From NCBI GenBank assembly GCA_902728285.1, contig CACVBU010000544.1, forward strand, positions 1 through 64,000: a DNA stretch of 64,000 nucleotides, read 5' to 3'. Each line of letters starts with the position of its first letter. The stretch's first letter is position 1. A model generated the notes under the pieces. The model was not told the DNA's origin. It saw only the letters and a program-made list of their open reading frames with translations, and made no database searches. This document shows positions 15,673-49,692 of the stretch, one piece after another. The DNA comes from Clytia hemisphaerica. Its lineage: Eukaryota; Cnidaria; Hydrozoa; Leptothecata; Clytiidae. Both the position numbers and the translations under genes were made by a program.

Positions 15673-16459
15673 ATTTAAAGAAAAACAACAATGTTTTTAA
15701 AATTGAGCAAAAGCTTTTCGATTAAAAATCATCTTCAGTGCTACAAATGATGTTAAAAATTGGAAATCAAAAAAGTTACAATTTATGTGTTTAAAAGCAA
15801 TTAAATGTAGTAAAAAACTGGATAAAAGAAACATCATAAAATACAAAAGGCAATGCATGTTAAGAGAATATGTAAAAAGTAATTAAAATAATTGGCTAAG
15901 TTACTCCATTTCGGAAAAGAATTAATCGGTTTGAGTCTAGTTGGTCATTTAAAGACGGTCTCTTGAGGGCTATGATAGATGCCTCTAAGTTCTTCCGTAA
16001 ACCAGTTTTCTCAGAGGCATTAAAGATAACCTTCCAAACGAATTGATGATTAGGGAATTTACGCAGGTGTTTGGCTGGTTCAGAGTTTTTGTCAATGTTT
16101 TCATGTTCCCCCCATCTGGTTTCGACGTTTCTTTCGGTTTCTCCAACATATTTATTTCCACAAGTGCAAATTCCTTCATAAATTTTGCATGCCGGATATG
16201 GACCGATTAATTCTTTTCCGAAATGGAGTAACTTAGCCAATTATTTTAATTACTTTTTACATATTCTCTTAACATGCATTGCCTTTTGTATTTTATGATG
16301 TTTCTTTTATCCAGTTTTTTACTACATTTAATTGCTTTTAAACACATAAATTGTAACTATTTTGATTTCCAATTTTTAACATCATTTGTAGCACTGAAGA
16401 TGATTTTTAATCGAAAAGCTTTTGCTCAATTTTAAAAACATTGTTGTTTTTCTTTAAAT
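15673..16459 (-). mobile_element. Penelope-like element 3' fragment with 258-bp inverted arms
   Basis: Arms 15673-15930 and 16202-16459 are near-perfect reverse complements of equal length. Between and overlapping them lies the end of an ORF on the minus strand that encodes a GIY-YIG-type endonuclease (next entry). Penelope-like retroelements are known to carry terminal repeats that can be direct or inverted, and to end their protein with a GIY-YIG domain. The reverse transcriptase part is missing, so this is a 5'-truncated copy whose 3' end was duplicated in inverted orientation. Confidence 0.8.
15896..16207 (-). pseudogene. GIY-YIG endonuclease domain of a Penelope-like element (truncated)
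   Basis: The frame reads on the minus strand to a stop at 15896. The first ~12 codons upstream (16208-16240) come from the inverted arm rather than the natural protein. The domain shows a Cys pair around the first motif (KIYEGICTCGNKYVGETER, where KYVG corresponds to the YIG half), a conserved Arg and His (TRWGEHEN), an EPAKHL segment, a conserved Glu (LEASIIA) and the family's usual ending LILFRNGVT. The GIY-YIG domain in these elements nicks target DNA for integration. The upstream reverse transcriptase is absent, so this copy cannot act on its own. Confidence 0.8.
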
Positions 16460-16950: not shown

Positions 16951-18771
16951 GTAGACCGTGTAACTGCACTAGCTATCGGTGTAATGGAGCGATCCGTTCA
17001 TCAAAGACAATTTATCGCCATGCAAAAACTGATGCTTCATATGCCATTCAGAAAACCACAGCACCTCTTGAAACTCAAAACATTGACTGTCCGTATTACC
17101 CTGGACTTTTTGAAACCCATCCAGCAGCTAAGACACCTCTTTTCCTTGATGCTGATATCTCCGTCTTAGACCATATCTTTTTGGAGTTTCGTAAATTTGT
17201 TTCGCATCCTAGCTATGCTAAGGCAACTGTTTCTGAGAGCTTTCGCAACGATAAACTTTTTAAATTACCCAAACCCAACGAATCTTGTTCCGGCAGGTCC
17301 AAAATGCATAAAACATAAAAAGCATATTGCATAATGCATAATGCATAATATTTGAAAAATGTCAATTTTAGAGGCCATAATAAGGAGAATTTGAAAGATA
17401 ATACTTTCAACAAAACAAATATACCATTTTCTACCAGAAAATAAAGGGTAGAAAGCTGTAAATTTGAATTTTGGATGATGAAGAAAATCCATGATCCACT
17501 GAAAATGCTTGTCGCCATTTTGATTTTCATAGTTGTATTTTACAGAACGTAGTATAGTGTAGAAAAAACACGAAAATATCTCCTCCGTATATTACTTTTC
17601 TAAGTTCTCAGAGATCTTTTTTAACATTTGCATCGGGTTTTCCATCTTACAAAGCATTAACCATGGAATGCTTTTATAATAAGCCAATATATCCAGCCAA
17701 TATAAATTAAAGAGTTTCATGCAAAAGCTAGATCAAAGAAAATAGACTTCGAATCTTTTTACATTCGAATGTTTATGGCTTTTTTGAGAAAGAAGAAGGG
17801 GGAACCTTTCTGATCTGTTGCATCTTCTTATTATTTATGCTGACGCAAAACCCTTTTGTTATGATTCGAATGTTTTCTCTTTCGTTCGGATTCGAAAAGT
17901 AAATATAATATGTCTGGGGAAATCCCTCTGATAATGGAATGTTTACAAGAAACTCTTCTAAAGAGGTTTTCGTGGTTTTAGCCTCTACAAAAAGGAGAGT
18001 TTTAGAAAATATAAAATCGTTCTGTAAATTACACAATACTATTATGCATTATGCAATATGCATTATGTTTTATGCATTTTGTACCTGCCGAATCTTGTTC
18101 ATCTTATGAAGAGGCAAAAGCCAAGATCAAAGACTTTCTTATACCGATCCAGACTTTCAAGGCGTGTGAAAAGGACTGCGTGGTTTTTAGAAATGAACTC
18201 TCTTCTGCTAAAACGTGTCCGAAGTGTGGAAGTAGTAAAACCAAATCCAAAACATTCAAATACTTTCCTATCGGACCGCGAATCGCCCGTTTGTATCAAA
18301 ATGAAAACTTGGTGCGCATATTGCAGGCTCATACTACCCGCCCGAAGGATGGATATCTGCGTGACATATGGGATACCAACAAATGGGAGAATTGATTTGA
18401 CGAGGATGGAGAGTTTAAAGGTGATGACGACGGCGTGGTTTTAAATTTTTGCAGTGATGGTGTCAACCCGTTCAAAACGATGCACCACGTCTACTCGATG
18501 TGGCCACTGATGTTATCGATCCTTAATTTTCCGCCCGCTCTGCGAAAATCTGTTGGTGGCATTATGCTGGTTGGAATTATCCCTGGCAACGGCAGAAAGG
18601 AAGCCTTCCACGTGGATCCATATTTTGAAATTTTGGTTGATGAACTAATGGTACTTTCAGATTGTCAAACTTTCCACCCGGGATATATGGAAGCACCCGT
18701 GAGAATCAAAGTACGCCTCCTGCAATACGTTTTGGATTTCCCTGCAATCTCTAAAGTACTTCAGCAACCAG
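16951..18771 (+). pseudogene. CACTA/Plavaka-type (tnp2) transposase, 5' half
   Basis: After an acceptor at 16950 the frame gives a CxC-type zinc cluster (PCNCTSYRCNG ... RHAKTDA), a linker and, beyond an 800-bp insertion (17291-18090), a second zinc site (KTCPKCGSSKTK). The tnp2-family core follows: YFPIGPRIARLY, the RPKDGYLRDIWD segment, NFCSDGVNPFKTMHH (probable first catalytic Asp), MWPLMLSILNFPP and GIIPGNGRKEA. Two lesions are visible: the insertion, and one in-frame TGA at 18393-18395 between otherwise conserved residues. The exon ends at a donor CAG|GTTTGT in phase 1. The next exon in phase (starting with the expected Cys-Pro-Trp-Cys motif) lies at 42874. CACTA transposases cut and paste their own element by a DDE mechanism; this copy is dead as it stands. 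Confidence 0.85.
17291..18090. mobile_element. 800-bp non-autonomous inverted-repeat element
   Basis: Both ends begin CGGCAGGT (or its complement). The inverted repeat extends about 50 bp with few differences, including several ATGCATAA words. The flanks carry an exact 10-bp target duplication, AATCTTGTTC (17281-17290 and 18091-18100). It interrupts the tnp2 transposase frame; because element plus duplicate is 810 bp, the frame is the same on both sides. A 9-11 bp duplication fits Mutator-like elements, but no transposase is present. Interior open frames (17213-17530, 17773-18036, both -) look like chance. Confidence 0.9.
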
Positions 18772-18821
18772 GTTTGTCTAATTTTAGATTAGGGTGATCA
18801 TCATGGATGTTTGCGGAACGT

Positions 18822-21083
18822 CGCGCTCAAACGCGCGTTCCGCATCCTTCGGCAAGATCTGCGTACGCGGGGCGTAAATTTGTATATGTTCAAAAAAATG
18901 TCCCCAAAACTGCTACCTCCAAAACGAAAAATGTCGACTTTGCTCTGTATTGAAGAATGGCACCTGTTTAGCCAGCGAAAAGAAGCATTTACCTCGTAAA
19001 TTTTATTGAAAATTAAATTTAGTAAAACTTTGGTTCTGATTTTGTCGTTTTTTGTTTTTAATATACATATTTAAAAAAAAGTAAAAGTGTATCTAAAATT
19101 ATATCCAGTTTGAATATCCTATCAAGTGCGAGATGTCTGTTTTTGTGTCGTGACTTTCACTTTTGCACATTTGCGAAACATAAACAAAGATGGCGATTTT
19201 TGTCAAGGCAGGATCCTGCTGATTTTTTAAGCTAGAAGGCATCTTTTGCTTGTAAAATGACGTTGCTACTGTGCACACTTATTGGAAATTTTAAACGAGT
19301 ATCATTCTTGAGGTTTTTTTACCACTTCCTCTGGGAGAGGTGAGAGCTGTCCTATCCTTCACTTGCTGATGGTGTGGTGGCTGTGTAGTCAACTGCTGAA
19401 ATTTTCCATAAATGGTGTGATGGTTGTTTACTTTGTGGCATTCAAACTTCATGGCACTTTTTTGTGATAATTTATTGAAGTAACCTTTACTATTACATCA
19501 ATTAATCTCATGGAAAACTATTTTTATGGCTTGATCAAACCAAATATCTGCATGAACAGCCCAGTCAGATTTATAAAAAAACAACATTCGGATTTCGAAA
19601 TATTTTAACTTTTTAGACAAAGGGCCGGCGATTTACACAAAAACTTCGGCGCTGCGCATAGGCTTCGCAAGGCAACATTTAAATCTTATTCAAGTTCTTA
19701 CTTTCGCAGCTTCGGCGCAGCGGCGAAAATCGTCGCGCAGCGCAACCTTTCACAATAAAAAATTTAATCTTATTTAATTTTTTTACCTTCGCGGCTTCGG
19801 CGCAGCGGCGAAAATCGTCGCGCAGCGCAACCTTTCGCAAGAAAATATTTAATCTTATTTAAGTTTTTACCTTCGCGGCTTCGGCGCAGCGGCGAAAATC
19901 GTCTCGCAGCGCAACCTTTCGCAAGAAAATATTTAATCTTATTTACGTCGCGCAGCGCGCTCAAACGCGCGTTCCGCATCCTTCGGCAAGATCTGCGTAC
20001 GCGGGGCGTAAATTTGTATATGTTCAAAAAAATGTCCCCAAAACTGCTACCTCCAAAACGAAAAATGTCGACTTTGCTCTGTATTGAAGAATGGCACCTG
20101 TTTAGCCAGCGAAAAGAAGCATTTACCTCGTAAATTTTATTGAAAATTAAATTTAGTAAAACTTTGGTTCTGATTTTGTCGTTTTTTGTTTTTAATATAC
20201 ATATTTAAAAAAAAGTAAAAGTGTATCTAAAATTATATCCAGTTTGAATATCCTATCAAGTGCGAGATGTCTGTTTTTGTGTCGTGACTTTCACTTTTGC
20301 ACATTTGCGAAACATAAACAAAGATGGCGATTTTTGTCAAGGCAGGATCCTGCTGATTTTTTAAGCTAGAAGGCATCTTTTGCTTGTAAAATGACGTTGC
20401 TACTGTGCACACTTATTGGAAATTTTAAACGAGTATCATTCTTGAGGTTTTTTTACCACTTCCTCTGGGAGAGGTGAGAGCTGTCCTATCCTTCACTTGC
20501 TGATGGTGTGGTGGCTGTGTAGTCAACTGCTGAAATTTTCCATAAATGGTGTGATGGTTGTTTACTTGTGGCATTCAAACTTCATGGCACTTTTTTGTGA
20601 TAATTTATTGAAGTAACCTTTACTATTACATCAATTAATCTCATGGAAAACTATTTTTATGGCTTGATCAAACCAAATATCTGCATGAACAGCCCAGTCA
20701 GATTTATAAAAAAACAACATTCGGATTTCGAAATATTTTAACTTTTTAGACAAAGGGCCGGCGATTTACACAAAAACTTCGGCGCTGCGCATAGGCTTCG
20801 CAAGGCAACATTTAAATCTTATTCAAGTTCTTACTTTCGCAGCTTCGGCGCAGCGGCGAAAATCGTCGCGCAGCGCAACCTTTCACAATAAAAAATTTAA
20901 TCTTATTTAATTTTTTTACCTTCGCGGCTTCGGCGCAGCGGCGAAAATCGTCGCGCAGCGCAACCTTTCGCAAGAAAATATTTAATCTTATTTAAGTTTT
21001 TACCTTCGCGGCTTCGGCGCAGCGGCGAAAATCGTCTCGCAGCGCAACCTTTCGCAAGAAAATATTTAATCTTATTTACGTTT
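18822..21083. repeat. Tandem duplication, ~1.13-kb unit
   Basis: The sequence beginning GCGCTCAAACGCGCGTTCCG at 18824 recurs at 19958, offset 1134 bp early and 1133 bp later (one T missing near 20567). The copies are otherwise almost identical up to about 19948 / 21083. The unit contains ~0.8 kb of flanking DNA plus the first ~330 bp of the KDZ transposon's left end, so that end is present twice. The junction falls in CGTCGCGC-rich sequence that also occurs in the array, suggesting unequal exchange or an assembly duplication. Confidence 0.9.
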
Positions 21084-21230
21084 TTACCTTCGCGGCTTCG
21101 GCGCAGCGGCGAAAATCGTCGCGCAGCGCACAACCTTTCACAAGAAGCATTTAATCTTATTTACTTTTTTACCTTCGCGGCTTCGACGCAGCAGCGAAAA
21201 TCGTCGCGCAGCGCAACCTTTTGTGAAATA
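20790..21230. repeat. Left subterminal array of the KDZ transposon (~84-bp units)
   Basis: About five units, each with TTCGCGGCTTCGGCGCAGCG, then AAAATCGTCGCGCAGCGCAA, then an A/T-rich spacer (CAAGAAAATATTTAATCTTA). A shorter duplicate copy of the outer part of the array lies at 19657-19948. Apparent protein frames across it are repeat translations, not genes. Confidence 0.9.
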
Positions 21231-21548
21231 TTGACATATGTAATTTTTTATTCACAGATTAGAAACAGTTTTTTCAAATTTATTGAGACCTTTAATATTT
21301 ACCACGATTAATGAGTAAAAACATTTATCTTAAAAAAATTTTATATACATCCCTATTCATAAATTTAAAAAAATAGTTATAAATATCCCAATATTGTAAT
21401 TTTTAACTCTTACAACATCTTCATTAATTCTTTATACCAAAAAAAATAAACAATTTATAATTAAAACACACCTGCAACTAAAAGTGAACGAAACACTCGT
21501 GAAAATTTTGAATTATACAGCTTTAATTTAACATCTTTTTTAACCATC

Positions 21549-23463
21549 TCAATAACTTAACTTTTTAGAAAGCCTGGTGTTATAATTGTCATCCAGTAAT
21601 TTCAATAAACATAACCTCTTTGCATATGTCATATTCCTTGTGATGTTTTTGTAACAATTCAGTACATGAAATGTTTGCTCACAGACTTCCGTATTCATCT
21701 TACGCACATCCTTAAATTTAGGAAGATCGGGATGGTATTTACAGTCGTCACTACTGAGCACGCATTTCGACTGCGTGTGTTTCTCAGCATGAAAAACGTC
21801 CACAATAAACATTAATTCTTCAATTGCCTTGGCAAAAACATTCCCTTCCCTTGCTAATCTACAGACGTACGGGTGTAGATCACAGGATCTATCATAAACT
21901 ATACCTTTCAAGTTTCCATTAAGATTACCTTGAAATATATCAATTAACCCTGTAAACACCATTGATAGACTTTCAGCAGTATACATTTCAAAATGGGACA
22001 ATCGAATGCCGCATGATCTAAAAACATACAACATACCAGCAGTCCGTGTCTCGTACTTGTTGCAGTTCTCTTCTTTCTTGCAACCTTCTCCACTTGTAAT
22101 AACATTCTCCAATAGCTTTACTCTTTGTCTAGTCATAGGATAAAGGTCTAATCTTTCATTTTTGATTTCATTTTTCATCTCTCCTGACTCGTTAGAGTGG
22201 ATGTGGCATAATTTGGATCCTTTTAAAGATTGATTTCCTCTAACCGGATTATTTATACAACGAACAACTTTGTTAACTTCTCCTATCTCATGAGGCAACT
22301 TAGTTATCGGTTTAGCGCAACAATATCGATACAATTTTTCGTTTCCGTCGATTACAACCATCTTATTCTTGCAACCTATAATTTAGAAAAGTCATTATTT
22401 TGATTAATTTTGAAAAACCCCACTGGGAAACAATTTAACCGGGATGCTGAGACAGGGGTGTAATAGTCATTTTTTCAATTTAAGCCTACACATATAATGA
22501 TAAAATGAATCAAGTTCAAAATGTATCCGAATTACCTGTCTCGTTACATTCGTGTGAAAACCATTTTTGATCGATTACTTTTTTCAAGGTTGGATACACA
22601 TCTTCACATATCTTTTCAATATCGAAATGTTTATTGTGGTCCTTTCTGTGCCATAACATTGTGGGGCAAATGCTTATTAGTCGTTTTATGAGCCAATGAT
22701 TTTCGATGACTTCGGCAATCAGTTTCTTTGTAGAGTCATCAATTCCAAATTCAACATTGTACATTTCGGAAATCTTATCAAAACTTGTAGCACCAATACA
22801 AATCTGTAGAGAAATCCTCTCTAGATATCGTGTCGTAAAAGCTATGGATGACGTGATCATAAAGTAGTCATCTCCATCTGTTAGATACGTTCGATATCCA
22901 TCTTTATTTTCTGTCCAGTGTCTGTAAAACTTCGTCTTACACGTCTTACACAAACCATGGTAATTCAATCCATCAATAATGCCATTTTCAGTGTAAATCC
23001 TTACTTGGGATGCTCTAGGGTTAATCCTGATCTTCTTCGAGCAACAAGTAGTGGTAATTGGGATAAATGCTGGCTGCTCCATGTATTCGCTGTTCCCTGT
23101 TTTATACCTAACCATACAGGTGCTGCAGTGTAGGATATGACTTTCGATTGGACGAAAATAAACTTCACCATTTGGTAGGTCAAGGTCTACTAATACCTGT
23201 AGATTACTGTCACTTAATGTGGTTACATACGATTGCAAAGTCTTCGTTATGTATTCGATTCGGTGTGGAGTGCGTAATGAAACATTACTAAGTAAATTCT
23301 GTAACACTTTCAATACATCAATCCGAATAATCATCTTCGCGCCTCTTAACTTTTCTCCGTATCTGCTTCCAGAAGGTTTGTGCTCAAACAAATTTTTCTT
23401 TTGTACATAATTTGTTTCATAAAAAACTGACGTTACAATAAATTTTTCAAGAAGACAATGCAA
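21549..23463 (-). CDS. KDZ-family transposase with CxC5/CxC6-like clusters
   Basis: Exon 1 runs to 22536 and exon 2 is 22375-21549, joined in phase across a 160-bp GT-AG intron. The frame is open from 23463, but the first in-frame ATG is at 23334. An in-frame TAA lies just upstream of 23463 in an A7 run, so the true start is uncertain. N-terminal Cys pairs (HCSTC, TTCC, GLCKTCKTKF) match the CxC5-like cluster. A second cluster spans the splice junction (HECNETGC ... RYCCA ... CHIH), CxC6-like. Core motifs follow: VVIDGNEKL (first Asp), IVYDRSCDLHPYVC (second Asp), DVFHAEKHTQSKC, and NTEVCEQTFHVLN (catalytic Glu). KDZ transposases move DNA elements by a DDE-type RNase-H fold. About 560 aa from the ATG, shorter than many KDZ proteins. 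It looks potentially functional apart from the start. Confidence 0.85.
22376..22535 (-). other. 160-bp intron of the KDZ transposase gene
   Basis: Donor GACAG|GTAATT and acceptor AATTATAG|GTTGC on the minus strand. Splicing fuses the two halves of a cysteine cluster, which supports the model. Confidence 0.85.
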
Positions 23464-23586
23464 TGGCTTTTTTTAGTTGTGACGTCGGATTTTGATTTTG
23501 GGAGAACATTGCATTGCCATCTTTAAAAAGAAGAAACTTAACGGCCATAAATTCATTTCACCTCAATCAACACTCGAGGAACAATC
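23464..23586. promoter_or_regulatory. Shared upstream region between the KDZ transposase and the ATPase gene
   Basis: About 120 bp separate the open end of the transposase frame from the ATPase start codon, so both genes must be driven from a very small bidirectional region or from overlapping 5' leaders. It contains GACGTC (23481) and several A-rich runs but no convincing TATA box. The A7 run (complement of T7 at 23468-23474) would put an upstream ATG at 23509 in frame with the transposase if it were one base shorter. Confidence 0.5.
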
Positions 23587-25223
23587 ATGTCGAAACCTTT
23601 GAAAGAAATCTCAGACGATGTTTACCGGCGCGCACTGGAAAAATGTTGGGCGGTAAAGTTGGACACACAGAAAACCTTCCCTACACTAATCGATGAATGG
23701 ATAACAGTGGAGAAGAAAAAACTTGGAGTTCCGTATTCTTACCTTGCATACCCACTTCTAACGAGTATATCATACTGTCTCGGTGTGAGCAGAGTAAAAC
23801 TGGCTGAATCGTACCAAGAACCCGTCATCCTTTACTCGTTGGTATCAGGCAGAAGTGGTACAAATAAATCAAGCTGTGTATCACTTTTCCGAAATATCAT
23901 CAACAAGATTGAAACAAATGAGCGAGATGATAAACAGCACATCTTTGACAGTGGCACTATCGAGGGTCTCATGACCACACTTCATGAGAACAACGGCTCC
24001 GTTTTATGCGCTGTAGACGAGTTTTCCACATTCTTAGATGCAATGGATAAAAACTCAAATGGAAATGTCGAACGCTCAAGGTAACTTTTTACTTAGTTTT
24101 GTAATTTTAAGATCCCATATACCTCACCGTCAAATATAGGTAATACGCACTCCAATGGAGAACCTAAAATCTTAATTGTGTTCGCACGGGTTTTCGCATA
24201 ATCTTAGTTAGTATTAGACCTGACATCCGTATGTTCAATTTTAACGTTTATCTTTTGAAAATAGCTCTTCATGTAATGGTATATGAACATAAGATTATCT
24301 TTAGATATCTATCTCTTTGGTCCGGTTCATCATGGTCAAAAAAGACAAAGCACGGCGGAAAGGTGGAAATTGAAGACCCACGATTCAGTTTTTATGGGTT
24401 TAACCAAAACTACTTTCTTATTAACATGATCGTTAACAGCAATCATTTTGATGGATTCCTGCCAAGATTTTTGGTCGCTACTTCTGAAGAGGAGTATGTT
24501 CCAATAACGGAAAAAATTGCAGCTTCGAAAACAAAAGTTCCACTCTGTATCCAGAATTTGTTTGACAAAATTTTCAAACACTTTTACTATAAAGGTCATG
24601 TTTTTGAGCTAGACACTGAAGCATTTACTTTGTTTGCATCATATGATCAAAAAGTTTTGGACTTCAGAAAGGCAGATGTGTTCGAAGACATGAAATCAAT
24701 GATTATGTCCAAAAGTATCGGTAATGTGCTGAGAGTAGCTGCTCTCCAGTGCGCACTACGCGTTGTTGTCGATGCCGATGACTTATCAAATCTGGATTTC
24801 ACAATTGGGATGGTCGACATGGAACGAGCCATCACGTTGGTAACGTATTCGGTTAACTGTTTAATTGCATTGATAGACAGCACGAAAAATACTTCACGAA
24901 ATGGAAGGAAACGACATAGCGAAATGCCTTTACCTGAAGTAATGGATGAGGAGTTTCTATTGGTCCACAAGGCGAAAATCAAAAAGATCTTCACGCAAAA
25001 TTCAAAGATCGTACCGGTTTCATCCATCACAAGAAATCACATGTGTCCTCAAATAGGTGGGAAAAATGGTTCAGAAGAAGCCAAACGTTTTCTAAAGGGG
25101 TTAGAGTTGAATGGTCTTGGTAAGCTGTCAGTGGAGAATGATAAATCAGTATTTATTGTAACCGATAAAGAAAACATTGAAAATCAGATAGTCTCAGATT
25201 TGATGACTAAACTCGATCTTTGA
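23587..25223 (+). CDS. DUF3987-like P-loop ATPase (470 aa), transposon-borne
   Basis: Exon 1 is 23587-24080 and exon 2 is 24305-25223, with GT-AG ends and an in-phase join (ATG at 23587, TGA at 25223). Visible motifs are a YLAYPLLTSISYCLGVSR helix, a Walker-A-like loop GRSGTNKSS (residues ~88-96, Asn where Gly is usual), a Walker-B-like VLCAVDEFSTFLD (~139-151), and the later YLSLWSGSSWSKKT and FSFYGFNQNYFLI segments. This order matches DUF3987 proteins, which are ATPase domains often found in primase-helicase proteins of phages and plasmids. The C-terminal third is charged and may be a winged-helix or other DNA-binding part (inference). Together with the divergent KDZ gene inside shared inverted repeats, it is probably a transposition or replication accessory. 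Family call fairly sure; role inferred. Confidence 0.75.
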
Positions 25224-25706
25224 GTCTTATACATTATCACACTTAATATTTATGGTTTGAATAATTAAATTTTTACGTGTTTGGATGATTTTTAAATTTG
25301 GCAGTTAATTTCAAATTTTGGGTTTTAAGGTTAGGTTGACCAGATATTTATGGAAAAATTCAGTTTTTTCTCCACACATCCATATTTATATTTAGTCAAA
25401 ATCAAATCATATAATTGTATTTATTCTTCAGATGTTGAATTCTAATTATTATTTGTATATTTTCCAATAACTTATTAATCACATCCTTACTTTTTTCAAT
25501 GAATTACTCTATCCACCATTTAAAAAAACTCATATAAACCGTTTTGGGTCACATCTATACATCATTTGATTTTAAGTTTTGATTTGACTTTAAAATTACA
25601 ACAACAAGTAGGTTTTATTGACTTAACCTTTACCTAACACATGTATTATTGACACCACCAGGCCATTTCAGACTTTATAGTATAATAGCTCCTATCACAC
25701 GCGAAA
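25224..25706. other. 3' flank of the ATPase gene and first diverged right-array unit
   Basis: AT-rich, no gene. From about 25660 it matches the spacer of the right subterminal array (CCATTTCAGACTTTATA ... CACACGCGAAAG), showing that the array originally started here. Confidence 0.5.
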
Positions 25707-26022
25707 GACCTTTATATACCCTGGACCAAGCTTCTCAATCCCAGCCAAGCAAAGTCTTTGATCGGAGTTTTTTGAAAATTGATACCCTAATGGCGGCACT
25801 ACTCGATAGCGGTGTAAATGCATCGAGAGCGCTAGGTCTACTTTTCCTCGAATTTATTTTATGATGTAGCGGCGTTAGATGTTAATTTTTAACATTGCAA
25901 TGGCTTCTCCTCGGGTACCAATTCCAAAAAAACTCCAATCAAAGATGGCAGATATATTTTTTTTTTTCGGTCAAAAAATCAAAGATGGCAGATATTGCTT
26001 GGTCCAGGGTTATATAAAGGTC
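25707..26022. mobile_element. ~316-bp inverted-repeat element inserted in the right array
   Basis: The ends carry CCCTGGACCAAGC and its complement, with GACCTTTATATA outside, as an inverted repeat (25707-25731 / 25997-26022). The array unit is interrupted exactly here. No coding content. Confidence 0.7.
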
Positions 26023-26489
26023 AGTGAGTGCAACATTCTTCACCGCTACGCCGAAGTCGCGAAGGCCATTTCAGACTTATAATAGCTCTTATCACACGCG
26101 AAAGGCTTGCGCAGCGCAACGTTCTTCGCCGCTACGCCGAAGCCGGGAAGGCCATTTCAGACTTATAAAAGCTCCCATCACACGCGAAAGGCTTGCGCAG
26201 CGCAACGTTCTTCGCCGCTACGCCGAAGTCGCGAAGGCCATTTCAGACTTATAAAAGCTCCCATCACACGCGAAAGGCTTGCGCAGCACAGCATCCTTCG
26301 TCGCTACGCCGAAGTCGCGAAGACCATTTCAGACTTATAAAAGCTCCCATCACACGCGAAAGGCTTGCGCAGCACAGCATCCTTCGCCGCTACGCCGAAG
26401 TCGCGAAGACCATTTCAGACTTATAAAAGCTCCCATCACACGCGAAAGGCTTGCGCACGTCAAATACGTGCGCTAACTGCGTATACCAC
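26023..26489. repeat. Right subterminal array of the KDZ transposon (86-bp units)
   Basis: About five near-identical 86-bp units, each with CTTGCGCAGCGCAACGTTCT, then TCGCCGCTACGCCGAAGTCG, then CCATTTCAGACTTATAAAAG. The GC-rich part is the reverse complement of the left array's GC-rich part, so the two arrays are mirror images. The overlapping 65-77 aa frames at 86-bp spacing are repeat translations. Confidence 0.9.
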
Positions 26490-26538
26490 GCGCAGCGCCG
26501 AAGTAAGTGTGCAAATCGTCGCCCCACTCTTTTTAGAC

Positions 26539-34160: not shown

Positions 34161-37100
34161 ATGGCTAACCGTTCAGTAAGAAAAGTAATTGAAGAAAATC
34201 TCCCAAAATATGCCTTGGTATATTTTGAATCAGATAAGAAGACCAGCATCAAAAGGACTGACCAACTTACCTGGAACAGCCAAGACCAGCGTGGAAAATA
34301 TTGCAAATTTGTTTTTGGCACAAAGACATTGATTGGGCAGATTCTAACTATGAAAGGTAAATAGTTAGTGGGGAACTAATGGAATAGATATTACACGTTT
34401 TTTTTTTAAGAAACTAGTTTTACCAAGCAGCATCAATGTTTCTTAAGAAATCGGCCTTTTGAGCCTTAAATGTTTCTAAACTGTTTGACATTATCAGCCT
34501 CATGGAAGGCTGAAATTTGACCTCCTATGAATTTCTCTAATTCGATATTCTTGCCAAATAAGGATTAATTTCACTTCGCATGAATTTCTCTAATTCGATT
34601 TTATTACCTTATAAGGATAAATATGGTGTCAATGGAAATTGTTTTGCCTCCTATAAATTTCTCTAGTCCGATAAGGATAAATATGGCATCAATAGAAAAT
34701 TTCACCTCCTTTAAATTTCTCTAATTCGATATTGAAATAAGGATAAATATCTCAATATTTCACTTCGTTTCTCTAATTCGATTTTATTGCCTTGTAAGGA
34801 TAAATATGGTGTCAATGGAAATTGTTTTGCCTCCTATAAATTTCTCTAGTCCGATAAGGATAAATATGGCGTCAATAGAAAATTTCACCTCCTTTAAATT
34901 TCTCTAATTCGATAGTAAAATAAGGATAAATATCTCAATTTTTCACTTCGTTTCTCTAATTCGATTTTATTGCCTTAAAAGGATAAATATGGCGTCACTG
35001 GAAATTATTTGGCCTCCTATAAACTTCTCTAGTCCGATATTCTTGCAAACTAGGGATTAATATAACGTCAGCGAAATTTGACCTCATATAAATTTCTCTA
35101 ATTCGATATTGAACATTATTTCTATAGAGACGGAGAATGAAGTGAACGTCTACGAAAAAGAATGGGAAAAGAATCAGCCCAAGAAACGAAAACAGGCCGA
35201 AACCGAGACCGAAAGTGACGACGAAGAGGAAGAGGAGAACAGAAAAAAGAAGAAGCCGAGACAGGTATGTTATTTTTCATGACAAATTTATTTCAGTGAA
35301 CGTATCTTCTATGATTTCAGTGTAGAAAATCTAAGTTGAAATTTCATTTTCTCTTTAATGAACAAGTCAGATTTTCTACGAATCACGTTGAAAGGTCCTA
35401 TAAAAATAGAAAAAGAAGTTAATTCATTCTTTTGCACGGGGAATCTTTTCGGTCCTTGACAAAATCTTTATTTTCGATGTCTTTGGAAAATTTCATGTTT
35501 CATTCAGTAGGCATAAAGTATAAAGTCTGTTCACGATCAGTGTACATATTTGTCTATAATTTTTTAAGGATTGGTTCAAATATAATAGATTTGGTACCGT
35601 TGGAAAGATATTGATGAGTGGAATAATTTGAAATAAAAATTGTTTTGAAAACTTTCTAAAATAAAAATGAAAACGAAGAAGAAAAATGAACTACTTGTAG
35701 AATTGAGATATAATTATCATTTTCAAAACAAAAAAGAGCGTACACTTATCGCGAACAGACTTTAACTTTTGATTTCTTTTTTTGCTATTAAGACTATCAA
35801 GAGGAAAGGAAAACCATCAAAAGAAAAGAAGAAAAAGCCAGCAGCAGTACCAAAAACCAAAGAACAGGTAAATTAATTTTTTATAGCCCTACAATACAAT
35901 TGTCAATCGTTTTCAAGAAAACGAATGGACTATTAATGTCTGTCTCAAATGTGGACACTTTACCTTTTTAACATTTTTTCAGCACCTAGTCATACTATAT
36001 TTAAAAGTTATACACCGTTGGAAAGATAATTTTGAGGAGAATGTTTTGATAGATTTCATATCTTGCTTAGGTCAAAAGATACAGCCCTTAAAAGTAGGGC
36101 TAAAATTGCCAAAAATCACTAAAAATGGCCAAAATGTACGTATTTCAAAGAGCTGTAACTTTGGATCAAAGCAAGATAGAAGAAATCTGATTATCTTTCC
36201 AACGGTGTATAACTTTTAAAAATAGTGTGACTAGGTGCTGAAAAAATGTTAAAAAAGTAAAGTGTCCACATACTTTTGAGACAGAATTTAACACCGAATG
36301 GCCTTTTTGAAATCTTTTCCTTACCTAAAAGTTCGTCTGAGTTTATGATAGACGTCCTCTTTTAAATTCAACCTCGTTTAAATTTCTCTAATTCGATACT
36401 ATTGCCATACATGGTCATGATACGAATTCGTTTTTGATTGAAATAAATTTCAATGAGCTGATCTGAAAAAGGAATAGATGTGAATTATGGAATCTGTGTT
36501 TACATCTATCTACAGAAAAAAGAGGAAAAGAAAAAGAGACAAAGCAAAGTCGAGAAAGTGAGAGCAGCCGAAGCAAGCTGCGAGATCGCATTGGAAACCA
36601 CAGAGGTATGTATACCTTAAACCTATTAATACCAGGCTTTTTGAGTTTTGTATTACCGGGGGTGGGTACTCCTTCAAAGTGAACTTGTGACTTGTGTGAG
36701 GTATTCCATTCAAAATTTGCTTTTAAAATCTGTCTCAAAATTATGTGGACACTTTACTTTTTTAACATTTTCTCAGCACTCATTTATGCTATAATAAAAA
36801 GTTATATACCGTTAGTATTTCATTTTTTTAATTTTCATTTTTCTTCATTTTCTAATTTTTTCAAAATCATTAAGCCTATTAAAACATTCTCTTCAAAATT
36901 ATTTTTCCAGCGGTATATAACTTTTTATTAAATGAGTGCTGAGAAACCTACCTACCTTAGCTTTCCAAATATGTATAACAAGTGCTTCTAACAAAACAGT
37001 CTAGCGATTTTACAAAATGCCCTCTACTACAAGTGGTACCAAGTTCTATAACAATTGTACCTTTATTTTTTAAGCCAAAACGCGACATCATTAACGTGGA

Positions 37101-38862
37101 CAAACAAAAGAATGTTAATGGCTTTATTTTCGATTCTGTGGTCCTAAAACATAACGTACCTGAGAAAGCCGACGCCCAATTTTCAAAGATTGTCAAAAGC
37201 AAGCCATTTGATGGTAATTTGAGGACCTTTTCTTCCCTTAAAACCAAAATTGTTGCTCCGTTGTCCGGCGAAATCGTTTCTCCGTCGTCGTCGTCCGGCG
37301 AAATCGTTGCTCCGCTGTCGTCGTCCGGCGAAATCGTTGCGCCACCGTCGTCCGACGAAATCGTTGCATCACCGTCGTCGTCGTCCGACGAAATCGTTGC
37401 TCCACCGTCGTCGTCCGACGAAATCGTTGCTCCGTCGGCATCATCCGGCGAAATCGTCGTTTCGTCCTCGTCTGGCAAAATCAACAAAATCGTTGTTCCG
37501 TCGGCATCATCCGTTTCGTCGTCGTCCGGCAAAATCAACAAAATCGTTGTTCCGTCGGCATCATCTGGCGAAATCGTCGTCTCGTCGTCGTCCGGCAAAA
37601 TCAACAAAATCGTTGTTCCGTCGGCATCATCCGTTTCGTCGTCCGGCAAAATCAACAAAATCGTTGTTCCGTCGGCACCATCCGTTTCGTCGTCCGGCAA
37701 AATCAACAAAATCGTTGTTCCGTCGGCATCATCCGTTTCGTCGTCGTCCGGCAAAATCAACAAAATCGTTGTTCCGTCGGCATCATCTGGCGAAATCGTC
37801 GTCTCGTCGTCGTCCGGCAAAATCAACAAAATCGTTGTTCCGTCGGCATCATCCGTTTCGTCGTCGTCCGGCAAAATCAACAAAATCGTTGTTCCGTCGG
37901 CATTATCCGGCGAAATCGTCGTATCATCGTCGTCCGGCAAAATCAACAAAATCGTTGTTCCGTCGGCATCATCCGTTTCGTCGTCGTCCGGCAAAATCAA
38001 CAAAATCGTTGTTCCGTCGGCATTATCCGGCGAAATTGGTGTTCCGCTGTCGTCTGGTTCCTCCACTGTTCCATGGTCTGGTTCCTCTAATGTTCTGTTG
38101 CCTGGTTTTGTTGTTCCTTTGTCTGCCAACACTCCAGTTTATTCAACGAACGCTTCAACCCCACGCCAACAATACACCACACCAAGTAGTTGTTCCTCTC
38201 GCATGTATTTCACTCCGGAGTCAACGGATTATGTTGTTTCTTCAAGAAGTGGTGGTCGATTTCTTCAACAATCCAAAGATCAAAAAAGCACTCGTGAGAA
38301 GATCGATGAACTTTCTTTGGAGTTGGTCCAAATGCGTGGGGTGATGGAGCAACAGGCAAAGGACATCAACACAATAATGACGATATTGAAAGAAACCACC
38401 AACCGCCAACCACCAATGCCAGTTCTTAATCACCATGAGGTTGCAAATGAGCTGGAAAATATTGAAAAAGCAATTGAGGATACCAGACCAAACCTTTTCT
38501 TGCCTGGCGGTTACATGGAGGAGCTCTTGGGGAATGGGTCAATCACAAGTTCAAAGTCGGAGGTTACAACTGAAGTAACAGAGGCAATTGCCAAATCCGC
38601 CATCGAAATGATGAAAAGTAAATTCAGCCCGCAAGAACTCAAATACGGGAACATAAAAGGCACCGCCAGGATGAAGAAACTAAATGAGGCGACAATGAGG
38701 AATATTTATTGTTCTATCCGAGAAAAATTCAATCTCCGCCCTGATTTTGAGTTCCTGGGACCCATTGAGACTAGAATTGGGATAAAATTGAATGCCCATA
38801 GGAAGAATATAAAATTATTAACACAGATAACAGATATTCCAAGTCAAAGCGCCAGCTCTTAA
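34161..38862 (+). CDS. BEN-domain protein with Ser-rich repeats (786 aa)
   Basis: Five exons: 34161-34356, 35128-35264, 35793-35867, 36516-36605 and 37000-38862, all GT-AG with consistent phase (787 codons including the stop). Residues 1-65 form a small domain (PKYALVYFESDKKTSI) of the kind seen at the N-terminus of some invertebrate BEN proteins. Residues ~66-166 are Lys/Glu-rich and probably a nuclear-localising, disordered segment. Residues ~250-515 are Ser-rich, with ten GKINKIVVPSA repeats. A coiled coil (~597-633) is followed by a C-terminal BEN domain (~667-777: LFLPGGYMEELLG, FSPQELKYGNIKG, MRNIYCSIREKF, IGIKLNAHRKNI). BEN domains bind DNA and recruit chromatin factors. It is divergent from the transposase-like gene and may be its partner or an independent host gene. 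Confidence 0.8.
34394..34510. mobile_element. Truncated copy of the CACGTTTTTTTTTAAG MITE
   Basis: Left end identical in layout to the complete copy at 44622-44892 (CACG, T-run, AAGAAACTAGTTTTACC ...), preceded by TA. The right end is missing. It lies in intron 1 of the BEN gene. Confidence 0.75.
34510..35115. repeat. Intronic repeat of AATTTCTCTAATTCGAT units
   Basis: About ten copies of (A/G)AATTTCTCTA(A/G)T(T/C)CGAT with spacers of ~40-70 bp, many followed by AAGGATAAATAT. A larger ~235-bp period is visible (34560-34740 resembles 34790-34970). One further copy lies at 36383 in a later intron. All of it is spliced out. Confidence 0.8.
35937..36286. mobile_element. Fold-back element in intron 3 of the BEN gene
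   Basis: The left arm (TGTCTCAAA ... TGTGGACACTTTAC ... AAAGTTATACACCGTTGGAA) is repeated in reverse complement at the right end over about 90 bp. A second, diverged copy lies at 36724-36945. No coding content. Confidence 0.8.
36724..36945. mobile_element. Second copy of the TGTGGACACTTTAC fold-back element
   Basis: Starts TCTGTCTCAAAATTATGTGG and ends with the complement of AGCACTCATTTA...AAAAGTTATATACCG. It sits in intron 4 of the BEN gene, just before the last exon. Confidence 0.7.
37440..38036 (+). repeat. Coding tandem repeat (GKINKIVVPSA units)
   Basis: Ten repeats in two alternating lengths: a short type ending VSSSS and a long type adding GEIVV. At DNA level these are TCG/TCC-rich words around GGCAAAATCAACAAAATCGT. 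The bias leaves all three + frames and one - frame open here, which explains the long overlapping frames 37250-38344 (+) and 38132-36957 (-). Confidence 0.9.
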
Positions 38863-46809: not shown

Positions 46810-49692
46810 TTACAATAAATAGCGTAGTTCATGGTTTGCCCATGCTTTGTTTAAATTATTCTTGAACGATTTTATCGATGATGCTTCTGCCACGTATTTT
46901 GGAAGCGCGTTCCATGTTGAGATAGTTCTATAAAAGAAGGACTTGCTTTGTGCACCACGTACTCCATCGTCCGGGAAATTCATCTGAAGCTCGTGTATAT
47001 GCTTTCTACATGGTCGCGTCCTTTTGATAAACTTTTTTGGTGTTGTTTTACTATCATAGATGTGGATATGCTTATACACCTGGACCATGTCACAGAAAAG
47101 TCTTCGAAACTCAAGGGATGGTAGCGCCAAGCGTCTTAGTCTTTCTGCATATGGTAACCGTGAGATTGGTTTTACTAGTTTTGTCGCACGTCTTTGGACA
47201 CTCTCGATCAGGTTGATAGATCGACGTAATCTTGGTTGCCATACTGATTGAGCATACTCTAAATGTGGTCGTACAAAGGTGGTATAAAGTGTCTGGAATA
47301 CGTGAGGACTAGGGTCTTGAAATCCTCTTTTGAGCAATCCCAACATAGAATTAGCTTTGTTTACTTGCTTAGCGATATGTTCTTCAAATGAAAGATCTGA
47401 GTCTATCAAAACACCGAGATCTTTTTCTGTGAAGACATGTTCAAGTTGCTCTCCATTTAGTTGATACGGGTGTGCATGCTTTATGTTCTCGAATTTACCT
47501 ATCGTTAAAACGTGGCATTTGTCGGGGTGGAATTTCAACAGCCACTCATGGGACCATCTTTCAAGTGCTTCAATGTCATGTTGTACGATTAAGGAGTCAA
47601 GAATGGAATTGATTTCCTTTATAATCTTCGTGTCGTCTGCAAACAAGAAAATGCTTGATAGAACATGTTCTGGTAGGTCATTAATATAAATAACAAAAAG
47701 CAGAGGACCGAGCACGCTTCCTTGAGGAATGCCACTTATCACTGGATCTAAAGATGATTTTGCACCATTAACACTCACTAATTGCTTGCGGTTCGATAGA
47801 AAAGATTTGATCCAGTTCAGAATTAATTCGTTTATCCCGTAGCGTTCTAGTTTCATCATAAGTCTTCGATGGGGTACCGTGTCAAATGCCTTGGCAAAGT
47901 CGAAGTATATGCAGTCGACCACTTCACTTTTTGCAGTTGATTCGCAACACATATCTATAAAGGAGATAAGCTGTGTGACTGTTGACCTTTTGTTGATGAA
48001 ACCGTATTGCTTGTTCGATAGAAGCTCTTCGCTGATAAGGTGTTCCATGATATGTTTTCGTATCATTGTTTCCATCAACTTACAGACTACTGAAGTTAGA
48101 CTTACGGGGCGATAGTTAATAGCAAGGTTGTGTGCTCCTTTGTTTTTATAGATTGGTGTCACATATGCTAGTTTCCAGTCACTAGGTAAGTTTCCTTCCT
48201 CGAAAGTTTTATTCATTATGATTGATAGTGGTTCTGCAATATGGTCACGAAGTTCAATAAGCATTGAGGCATGAATCTCATCTGGACCAATTGATTTATT
48301 CGCATTGAGCTTCCTGATTTGTTCTGTTATCATTTCCTTCGTAATGTTTAGTGGTTGAAGTATTTTATCTGTTCTGTTGTCAAAATCAGGTAGATCACCT
48401 TCCGGTTCTTTAGTAAAGACACTGCAAAATTGTTTCTGCAGGATGTTGGCCTTTTCTTGGTCCTCGTGCTTTAGGGATGTCTTGTCATCGGGCGTTTCAA
48501 GAAGAGGGGAAACTCCACTTTTTGATTTAAGTTTGCCTCTGACATGTGACCAGAACGCTTTTGGGTTTCTCTTTGAGTTTTCACCGATGGCTAGATCGTA
48601 TTCTCTTTTTGCAAGTGCCATCTTTCGATTGACACGGTTCCTCGCGATTACATATCGGATTCTTGCTTGACGTCTGTTTGTGGGTGATGATTTTGATTTT
48701 AACCAGATCCTGTGAAGTCGCCTCTTTTCTTTGATGTCATTACGTAGTTCAGCATTAATTGGAATTTTCCCTTTCTTTTTCCAGTGAGGCGCTCCTAACT
48801 CTTTTCTTGGGACAAATTGATCTCTGAGTTGAAGAAGTTTTGTTTTGAATTTTGACCAGAGCTCCTCGATCGACCCATGTGAGGTATCTATGAATTCTCT
48901 CGTCCAGTTGATTCTTTGCAGATGACTTTTCATCGACTTAAAGTCTGCCAAGTGGTAGGTGTATCTTTTGGTTGGTGCTTTAAGTTCCATATAACATTTA
49001 AAGCTAAAAGAGAGAACGCTATGATCACTTTTTCCTAAAGGGCTTAGGAAATTTAGATCTTGAACCTGATCTCTTTCATCTGTTAAGATGAGGTCAATCA
49101 GTGAAGGCTCGTCAGTACCTCGACATCTGGTAGGTTCATTCGTATGTTGGAAAAGGAATGAATCACGTAATGCTTCCAGGAATTGCTCTTCTTTACTTTC
49201 CTCTACATGTGGACTTGTCCAGTTCTTCCAATTTATAGTTGGAAAATTGAAGTCACCAATGATGCAACGATGCGTGTATCTCTTATCTTCTGATATAATT
49301 CGTAAGAGCTGGTTAAGATTGGCATTATTTTCTCCAGAGTTTGATTGATTCGTTGGACTGCGGTAGACGCATGCAAAGCAAAGCATATCTTTTCCAGCCA
49401 GACGTACTTCAATGATGCACGCCTCCTCCAGTGCTACAGGACATTCAATGTCAACTGTAAGGTGGTCTACACTGGTATGTCCTAGGATGACGATACCACG
49501 TCCTGTATTGTTCTCAGTATTGGTGTGGTTTACGACTGTGTATCCATCAATTAGATATTCGTGAATTTTCCATCTTTCACCGTTCTTTGGTTTGACTTCA
49601 CAGATTGCAATAAAATGTGGATATTCCTTTGTTATGAGTTCTTCTAGTTGTAGTTTTTTCATTGTTGTTAGCTGGTCGGCATTTGTATACAT
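46810..49692 (-). CDS. LINE ORF2: endonuclease and reverse transcriptase (960 aa), intact
   Basis: ATG at 49692, 78 bp after the ORF1 stop, in a frame that is already open across it. An N-terminal apurinic-type endonuclease has AICEVKPKN (catalytic Glu ~32), CVYRSP, GDFNFPTINW (~143) and SDHSVLSF (~222). The reverse transcriptase has YRPVSLTSVVCKLME, GFINKRSTVTQLI, FDFAKAFDTVPH, GIPQGSVLGPLL and LFADDTKII (catalytic Asp pair ~684). The C-terminal domain has RPHLEYAQSVW. There is no stop or shift over 960 codons, so this ORF could still be functional. It copies element RNA into DNA at a nicked target. Motifs fit the CR1/Jockey group; the exact clade is not assigned. Confidence 0.95.
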   Translation of the reverse strand: MYTNADQLTTMKKLQLEELITKEYPHFIAICEVKPKNGERWKIHEYLIDGYTVVNHTNTENNTGRGIVILGHTSVDHLTVDIECPVALEEACIIEVRLAGKDMLCFACVYRSPTNQSNSGENNANLNQLLRIISEDKRYTHRCIIGDFNFPTINWKNWTSPHVEESKEEQFLEALRDSFLFQHTNEPTRCRGTDEPSLIDLILTDERDQVQDLNFLSPLGKSDHSVLSFSFKCYMELKAPTKRYTYHLADFKSMKSHLQRINWTREFIDTSHGSIEELWSKFKTKLLQLRDQFVPRKELGAPHWKKKGKIPINAELRNDIKEKRRLHRIWLKSKSSPTNRRQARIRYVIARNRVNRKMALAKREYDLAIGENSKRNPKAFWSHVRGKLKSKSGVSPLLETPDDKTSLKHEDQEKANILQKQFCSVFTKEPEGDLPDFDNRTDKILQPLNITKEMITEQIRKLNANKSIGPDEIHASMLIELRDHIAEPLSIIMNKTFEEGNLPSDWKLAYVTPIYKNKGAHNLAINYRPVSLTSVVCKLMETMIRKHIMEHLISEELLSNKQYGFINKRSTVTQLISFIDMCCESTAKSEVVDCIYFDFAKAFDTVPHRRLMMKLERYGINELILNWIKSFLSNRKQLVSVNGAKSSLDPVISGIPQGSVLGPLLFVIYINDLPEHVLSSIFLFADDTKIIKEINSILDSLIVQHDIEALERWSHEWLLKFHPDKCHVLTIGKFENIKHAHPYQLNGEQLEHVFTEKDLGVLIDSDLSFEEHIAKQVNKANSMLGLLKRGFQDPSPHVFQTLYTTFVRPHLEYAQSVWQPRLRRSINLIESVQRRATKLVKPISRLPYAERLRRLALPSLEFRRLFCDMVQVYKHIHIYDSKTTPKKFIKRTRPCRKHIHELQMNFPDDGVRGAQSKSFFYRTISTWNALPKYVAEASSIKSFKNNLNKAWANHELRYLL

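Follow-up and report, generated by a model that had tools for sequence, protein, structure and literature searches.

A KDZ-type transposon of Clytia hemisphaerica with a divergently oriented gene for a predicted DUF3987 ATPase

Introduction

Cut-and-paste transposons of eukaryotes are generally regarded as requiring a single transposase, sometimes together with a DNA-binding helper, and in bacteria TnsC, MuB and IstB are ATPase partners of transposases, being encoded beside a transposase of the DDE type. For the KDZ (Kyakuja-Dileera-Zisupton) transposons, the portion of PMC12730594 used in this study describes target duplications of 8 bp in Zisupton and one Dileera family, and of 7 bp in two Kyakuja families that are without terminal inverted repeats (TIRs); the same portion describes fungal KDZ transposons carrying an added TET/JBP enzyme gene, the gain of which in Kyakuja and Zisupton was independent of the gain in Dileera. 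The transposase gene of Zisupton is multi-exonic according to the excerpt of PMC9297572 used here, and for DUF3987 domains that occur in fusion with archaeo-eukaryotic primases, the excerpt used of PMC5862659 predicts a function as helicases of mobile elements. Here, a KDZ-type element is described at positions 20752-26528 of a 64,000-nucleotide stretch of DNA from the hydrozoan Clytia hemisphaerica (assembly GCA_902728285.1, contig CACVBU010000544.1, positions 1 to 64,000 of the forward strand; this entire stretch is referred to as the window), in which the transposase gene is accompanied by a second gene encoding a protein with a DUF3987 domain.

In the open-access literature, DUF3987 is encountered in bacteria, phages and genomic islands, its Pfam family PF13148 features in work on phage satellites, and no paper was found that pairs KDZ with DUF3987 (the founding Zisupton/KDZ papers and Repbase lie outside this search). 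Open-access papers that deal with ATPases encoded by transposons, or with Zisupton in combination with ATPase or primase, included no KDZ element with an ATPase among the matches listed, as judged by title and abstract, and the main text of PMC12730594 contains no mention of either DUF3987 or ATPase. KDZ transposons with added enzyme genes are known; the element described here is set apart by its open-frame gene for a predicted ATPase of the replication type.

Results

The limits of the element are defined by inverted ends and a direct repeat. The left TIR of 39 bp (20752..20790, plus strand) pairs with a right TIR of the same length (26490..26528, minus strand), with a gap-free match at 31 of 39 positions (22/30 and 38/60 over those alternative lengths), and immediately outside them lie two exactly matching 10-bp copies of the target duplication CTTTTTAGAC, at 20742..20751 on the left and 26529..26538 on the right, both on the plus strand. 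The probability of such an arrangement arising by chance was assessed by scanning the entire window for exact 10-mers that flank 39-bp inverted ends, employing 100 first-order Markov sequences as controls: the end pair of the element scores 31/39, and the highest-scoring control 24/39. A more permissive scan, for 8-mers next to 30-bp ends, did not settle the matter, as the element pair scores 21/30 and a score of 21 was also reached by 2 of 20 controls. The ends and target duplication of the element exceed chance, and the bounded element that had been claimed from inspection of the sequence was thus recovered. The true target duplication may be shorter, i.e. 8 or 9 bp extended by chance matches, or the ends may be shifted; for known KDZ elements, duplications of 7-8 bp are given in the part of PMC12730594 used here, as opposed to an exact 10 bp next to gap-free ends in the window element.

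When both strands of the window are considered, CTTTTTAGAC has one further occurrence, at 19609. It lies inside a tandem duplicate in which 18822-19948 corresponds to 19956-21081 (99.9% identity in an 1127-bp alignment with 0 mismatches and 1 gap), such that 19609..19955 (plus strand) represents the duplicated target sequence and left end. Because the duplicate repeats the left end along with its flank, this copy does not represent a second independent insertion. The duplicate at 18822-21081 may have arisen by local duplication or may be an assembly error.

Between its outer ends the element holds just two genes besides a nested miniature inverted-repeat transposable element (MITE). The two genes face away from each other in a head-to-head arrangement, in which their ATG codons are separated by an intergenic region of 252 bp (23335..23586), and both spliced frames are open; in a survey of open reading frames (ORFs) of at least 60 aa, the sole other ORF inside the element that exceeds 100 aa is antisense to exon 2 of the DUF3987 gene. 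The earlier count of exactly two divergent genes is therefore upheld, and the locus represents a complete-looking two-gene DNA transposon of the KDZ superfamily, the structure of which is solid.

The DUF3987 gene is located on the plus strand and consists of exon 1 (23587..24080), a GT..AG intron of 224 nt (24081..24304) and exon 2 (24305..25223), the spliced frame remaining open to the stop codon and specifying a protein of 470 aa. Pfam assigned the protein to DUF3987 (PF13148) at 6.8e-32 and 111.5 bits, with a cut-off of 27; this match and the two in the transposase described below are all above the curated Pfam cut-offs. PHROG matches were obtained to a DNA helicase (1.9e-17), to DNA primases (2.1e-13 and 1e-9) and to a family of unknown function (0.15). 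Exon 1 encodes the P-loop GRSGTNKSS (from 23848) and the Walker B motif LCAVDEF (from 24004). In alignment A1, which comprises the window protein and three prokaryotic members at 21-23% identity, the invariant residues include the P-loop lysine K94 and the Walker B pair D144-E145, followed in exon 2 by G172, E188, G196, Q199, G215 and R219, by which the DUF3987-type P-loop and Walker B motifs named in the sequence-only reading are confirmed. The same reading had termed the protein divergent, which applies in a mild sense: its 111.5 bits compare with 117-177 bits for the DUF3987 domains of six phage, plasmid and viral-contig relatives.

No primase domain was detected by Pfam in the DUF3987 protein, DUF3987 being its sole domain, and the other gene of the element is the transposase gene; NCBIfam returned no family for the DUF3987 protein. 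Its C-terminal segment may be a winged helix, and a C-terminal fragment gave no Pfam family up to an expectation value (E) of 0.1. Of the sequence searches against solved structures, one gave 0 matches and the others two matches to Rab-23 (E 0.11 and 0.28) and one to a demethylase (E 0.95), all three of which were taken as chance.

The transposase gene is located on the minus strand. Its exon 1, as counted from the first ATG, spans 22536..23334 and holds a match to CxC5 (about 22750-23055), a GT..AG intron of 160 nt follows at 22376..22535, and exon 2 (21549..22375) specifies the motif VIDGN, a series of Cys/His residues, the KDZ match (about 21600-22058), YDRSCD, NTEVCEQ and the stop codon, to which the spliced frame is open. 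Counted from a TTG at 23463 the frame has 584 codons, and 541 if translation begins with the first ATG, at 23334; the true start may lie in the TTG-open frame, at the ATG or in a further upstream exon. The Pfam match to CxC5 (PF18718) was obtained at 3.1e-12 and 47.1 bits (cut-off 26.9), and that to KDZ (PF18758) at 2.5e-7 and 31.0 bits (cut-off 26.6), the latter covering profile positions 62-210 of 217 and leaving the first 61 unmatched. Three candidate catalytic motifs were located, VIDGN from residue 317, YDRSCD from 470 and NTEVCEQ from 537, which we take to hold the candidate DDE residues of the transposase; NTEVCEQ is presumably a motif conserved in KDZ proteins. For CxC6, no Pfam match was obtained with the whole transposase (E up to 10, HMMER filters on) or with a fragment (E up to 0.1), and what is visible in that region, between VIDGN and the KDZ match, is restricted to Cys/His residues (CCAKP at 328, CINNP at 349 and CHIH at 366). 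Of the KDZ transposase with CxC5/CxC6-like clusters that had been proposed, the KDZ and CxC5 assignments consequently stand above the Pfam cut-offs, and CxC6 is left as a pattern of residues.

Relatives of both proteins were sought in prokaryotic, viral and plasmid collections, which are silent on how rare the pairing is among eukaryotes. Searches of viral contigs for relatives of both proteins produced 8 and 4 pattern matches, none of which was confirmed by tblastn, and the KDZ motif NTEVCEQTF gave 0 stretches in viral contigs. The shorter motif NTEVCEQ was found in 14 stretches of prokaryotic genome contigs and 6 of viral contigs, none of these 20 encoding a KDZ transposase as determined by tblastn and translation (best E 0.85). 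Fourteen control genomes, apparently prokaryotic, yielded DUF3987 in one case (Bacteroides ihuae) and KDZ in 0/14, a count that does not imply absence of KDZ, and a further genome searched beside these controls (G001) yielded neither family.

For the DUF3987 protein, tblastn identified relatives in one phage and two plasmid records at about 20-21% identity. With alignment A1 as the query, viral contigs gave 7 pattern matches and no confirmed locus; a second query, A2, which was built from the three prokaryotic DUF3987 members, gave 76 pattern matches, of which four loci were confirmed. In several relatives Pfam placed primase-associated domains ahead of DUF3987: the Geminocystis plasmid protein (L021) carries Prim-Pol and PriCT_2, the viral-contig protein L027 a primase zinc ribbon above cut-off (6.9e-11), and the viral-contig protein L025 a zinc ribbon (0.007) and Toprim (4.9e-4), both below cut-off. 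Others are stand-alone, namely a Bacteroides plasmid protein of 463 aa (L022), the phage protein L023 and L024; a match to AAA (PF00004) was obtained for L023 at 3.6e-4 (21.4 bits versus a cut-off of 21.2) and below cut-off for L024 (0.062), and the C-terminus of L022 matched an MCM winged helix at 1.7e-4, also below cut-off. As judged from these domains, each relative is either a primase-helicase or a mobile-element protein that stands alone. The P-loops of L025 and L027 read GRSGAKKSP or GRSGAKKGP, without the usual glycine before the lysine.

Internal to the TIRs, CpG-rich subterminal repeats are present at both sides of the element: a left array of ~85-bp units (20828..21215, plus strand, repeat family D1) and a right array of 86-bp units (26027..26457, minus strand, repeat family D2), the core of which resembles the left array in inverted orientation. 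The two arrays are mutually inverted with a similarity of 70-76%, and an alignment of left units with reverse-complemented right units revealed a common CpG-rich core of ~50 bp. CpG density reaches 47 per 400 bp at the left array as compared to a window median of 10, and the observed/expected ratio is 2.21 for the left array, 1.57 for the right array and 0.95 for the whole window. These arrays resemble transposase binding sites and may have that putative role. Within the right array, towards its inner side, sits a MITE-like insertion of 312 bp (25709..26020, repeat family D5) with the inverted ends CCTTTATATA(A)CCCTGGACCAAGC, and a partial repeat copy is present on its far side at 25681-25707. 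Folding of four repeat or end stretches as single strands, one strand each, gave no clear gain over shuffled sequences (z of 0.05, -1.11, -0.74 and -0.70), and hairpin formation by the ends is thus not supported.

Elsewhere in the window, a minisatellite at ~37050-38060 exceeds the subterminal arrays in CpG richness, and three long ORFs, of which two are plus-strand and one is minus-strand, run through its segment 37245-38057 without a stop, with SSGKINKIVVPSA as a translated repeat. A MITE-like element of 800 bp at 17291-18090 (17281-18100 with its duplications) has inverted ends matching at 29/39 and an exact 10-bp duplication, AATCTTGTTC, which is as long as the duplication flanking the KDZ element. 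About 0.3 kb from this MITE-like element, 18435-18797 holds a remnant of tnp2 (Transposase_21). Also present are a 258-bp inverted repeat (15673-15930 and 16202-16459, 99.6% identical and 271 bp apart) and an ORF of 960 aa of the long interspersed nuclear element (LINE) type at 46810-49692 with endonuclease and reverse transcriptase domains. Together with the introns of the two genes, the LINE and tnp2 sequences are in keeping with the eukaryotic nature of the window. Searches of the whole window with Rfam (gathering thresholds) and for tRNAs gave 0 matches.

Discussion

The element described here resembles known KDZ transposons in its KDZ and CxC5 domains, which match Pfam above the cut-offs, and in having TIRs and a target duplication; its transposase gene, with one intron, is in line with the multi-exonic gene of Zisupton (PMC9297572, in the excerpt used). 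It differs from them in possessing a second gene, with DUF3987. In this respect, it is comparable to the fungal TET/JBP-carrying elements, which are also KDZ transposons that carry an additional gene for an enzyme (PMC12730594, in the part used), although their enzyme acts on modified bases and that of the window element is a predicted ATPase. With the DUF3987 proteins encoded by plasmids, by phages and by mobile elements of Bacteroides, the window protein shares the domain as well as the P-loop lysine and the Walker B DE of the three aligned members, and with L022 also a stand-alone organization and a similar size (463 versus 470 aa); it differs from the plasmid and phage proteins in that its gene is split by an intron, has no detected primase domain and adjoins a transposase gene.

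The links of these relatives to primases and helicases make DNA-dependent ATPase or helicase the likeliest activity of the window DUF3987 protein, perhaps of the AAA+ type. It is predicted that this protein assists the KDZ transposase as a dedicated partner within the two-gene transposon, a proposal to which we assign a probability of roughly 0.5. In such a scheme, the transposase would bind the CpG-rich subterminal arrays by means of its cysteine clusters, and would cut and join the element ends; the DUF3987 protein, expressed from the 252-bp intergenic region common to both genes, would act as a DNA-dependent ATPase or helicase and would help the transposase. Its most likely contribution would be to unwind or remodel the DNA of the element ends or of the target, which might raise the efficiency of excision, of insertion or of the repair carried out by host replication. 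A partner role is made plausible by the head-to-head genes, their open frames and introns, the ends that enclose both, and the retained ATPase residues. The comparison with bacterial transposases and their ATPase partners that accompanied the sequence-only reading is no more than an analogy: TnsC, MuB and IstB share with the window element the idea of an ATPase gene next to a transposase gene, whereas the sequence evidence for DUF3987 leads to proteins that look like replication helicases.

Several observations weigh against this proposal. The partnership is deduced from a single copy of the element. In the window protein, asparagine replaces the glycine that precedes the P-loop lysine K94, and the Walker B motif shows some variation among family members, L027 having EE in place of DE in the second alignment. 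An AAA domain was not matched by the window protein in Pfam up to E = 10, no related chain emerged when solved structures were searched by sequence, and the structure models of the transposase exon-2 ORF alone (predicted local distance difference test score, pLDDT, of 38) and of L024 (pLDDT 43, from 6 alignment rows) were too poor to be used. As to the P-loop, the residue before the lysine is glycine in the Bacteroides plasmid protein, in the phage protein L023 and in L024, and lysine in the Geminocystis plasmid protein and the viral-contig proteins L025-L027 (L025 and L026 being near copies), so that this glycine is missing in part of the DUF3987 family and its loss need not imply inactivity.

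Since captured enzyme genes are known in KDZ elements, a serious rival explanation is that the element has picked up a DUF3987 gene, be it from an insert of phage, plasmid or viral origin or from another mobile element, which plays no part in transposition or renders some other service. The pickup of foreign genes has a precedent in the TET/JBP genes of Kyakuja, Zisupton and Dileera elements (PMC12730594, in the portion used), stand-alone DUF3987 genes such as L022 of a Bacteroides plasmid travel on other mobile elements, and the pairing is known from a single copy; yet the open frame, the intron and the 252-bp head-to-head gap to the transposase gene are as expected for a settled pair, and a limited scan for further ends that would bracket just the ATPase gene was negative. 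We consider such a passenger possible, though less likely than a partner. It is unlikely that the DUF3987 gene, as part of a different element or as an old host gene, came to lie between the KDZ ends by chance through nested insertion. The region is indeed rich in nested elements, as illustrated by the MITE in the right array, the MITE-like element at 17281-18100, the tnp2 remnant and the LINE, but the outer ends hold just the two genes and the MITE, and 0 results were returned by a scan for a 4-bp duplication with 20-bp inverted ends (at least 14/20) that covered starts at 23441-23590 and ends at 25220-25710.

That misassembly or contamination has fused a eukaryotic transposon with an ATPase gene from a bacterium or phage is very improbable. 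The left end does lie within the 99.9% tandem duplicate, a possible assembly error; against this, the ATPase gene is situated mid-element, away from the duplicate, contains a GT-AG intron between two open frames that splicing unites, and displays only about 20-25% identity, over long matches, to the prokaryotic relatives found.

Proceeding with the DUF3987 protein as a partner of the transposase, we tentatively suggest, and with less than even confidence, that the element may represent a eukaryotic KDZ lineage with two-component transposition, in which an AAA+-like DUF3987 helicase from the replication modules of prokaryotic mobile elements would have been recruited as a dedicated subunit, working together with the transposase on ends marked by CpG-rich subterminal arrays. 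The pairing would indicate how helicases that serve replication in bacterial mobile elements came to be genes of eukaryotes. With a KDZ element that brings a predicted DNA motor, it would become testable whether some cut-and-paste transposons of eukaryotes use ATP-driven unwinding or target handling, and the present case provides a hint that transposons of the KDZ type may carry a DNA-remodelling motor of their own.

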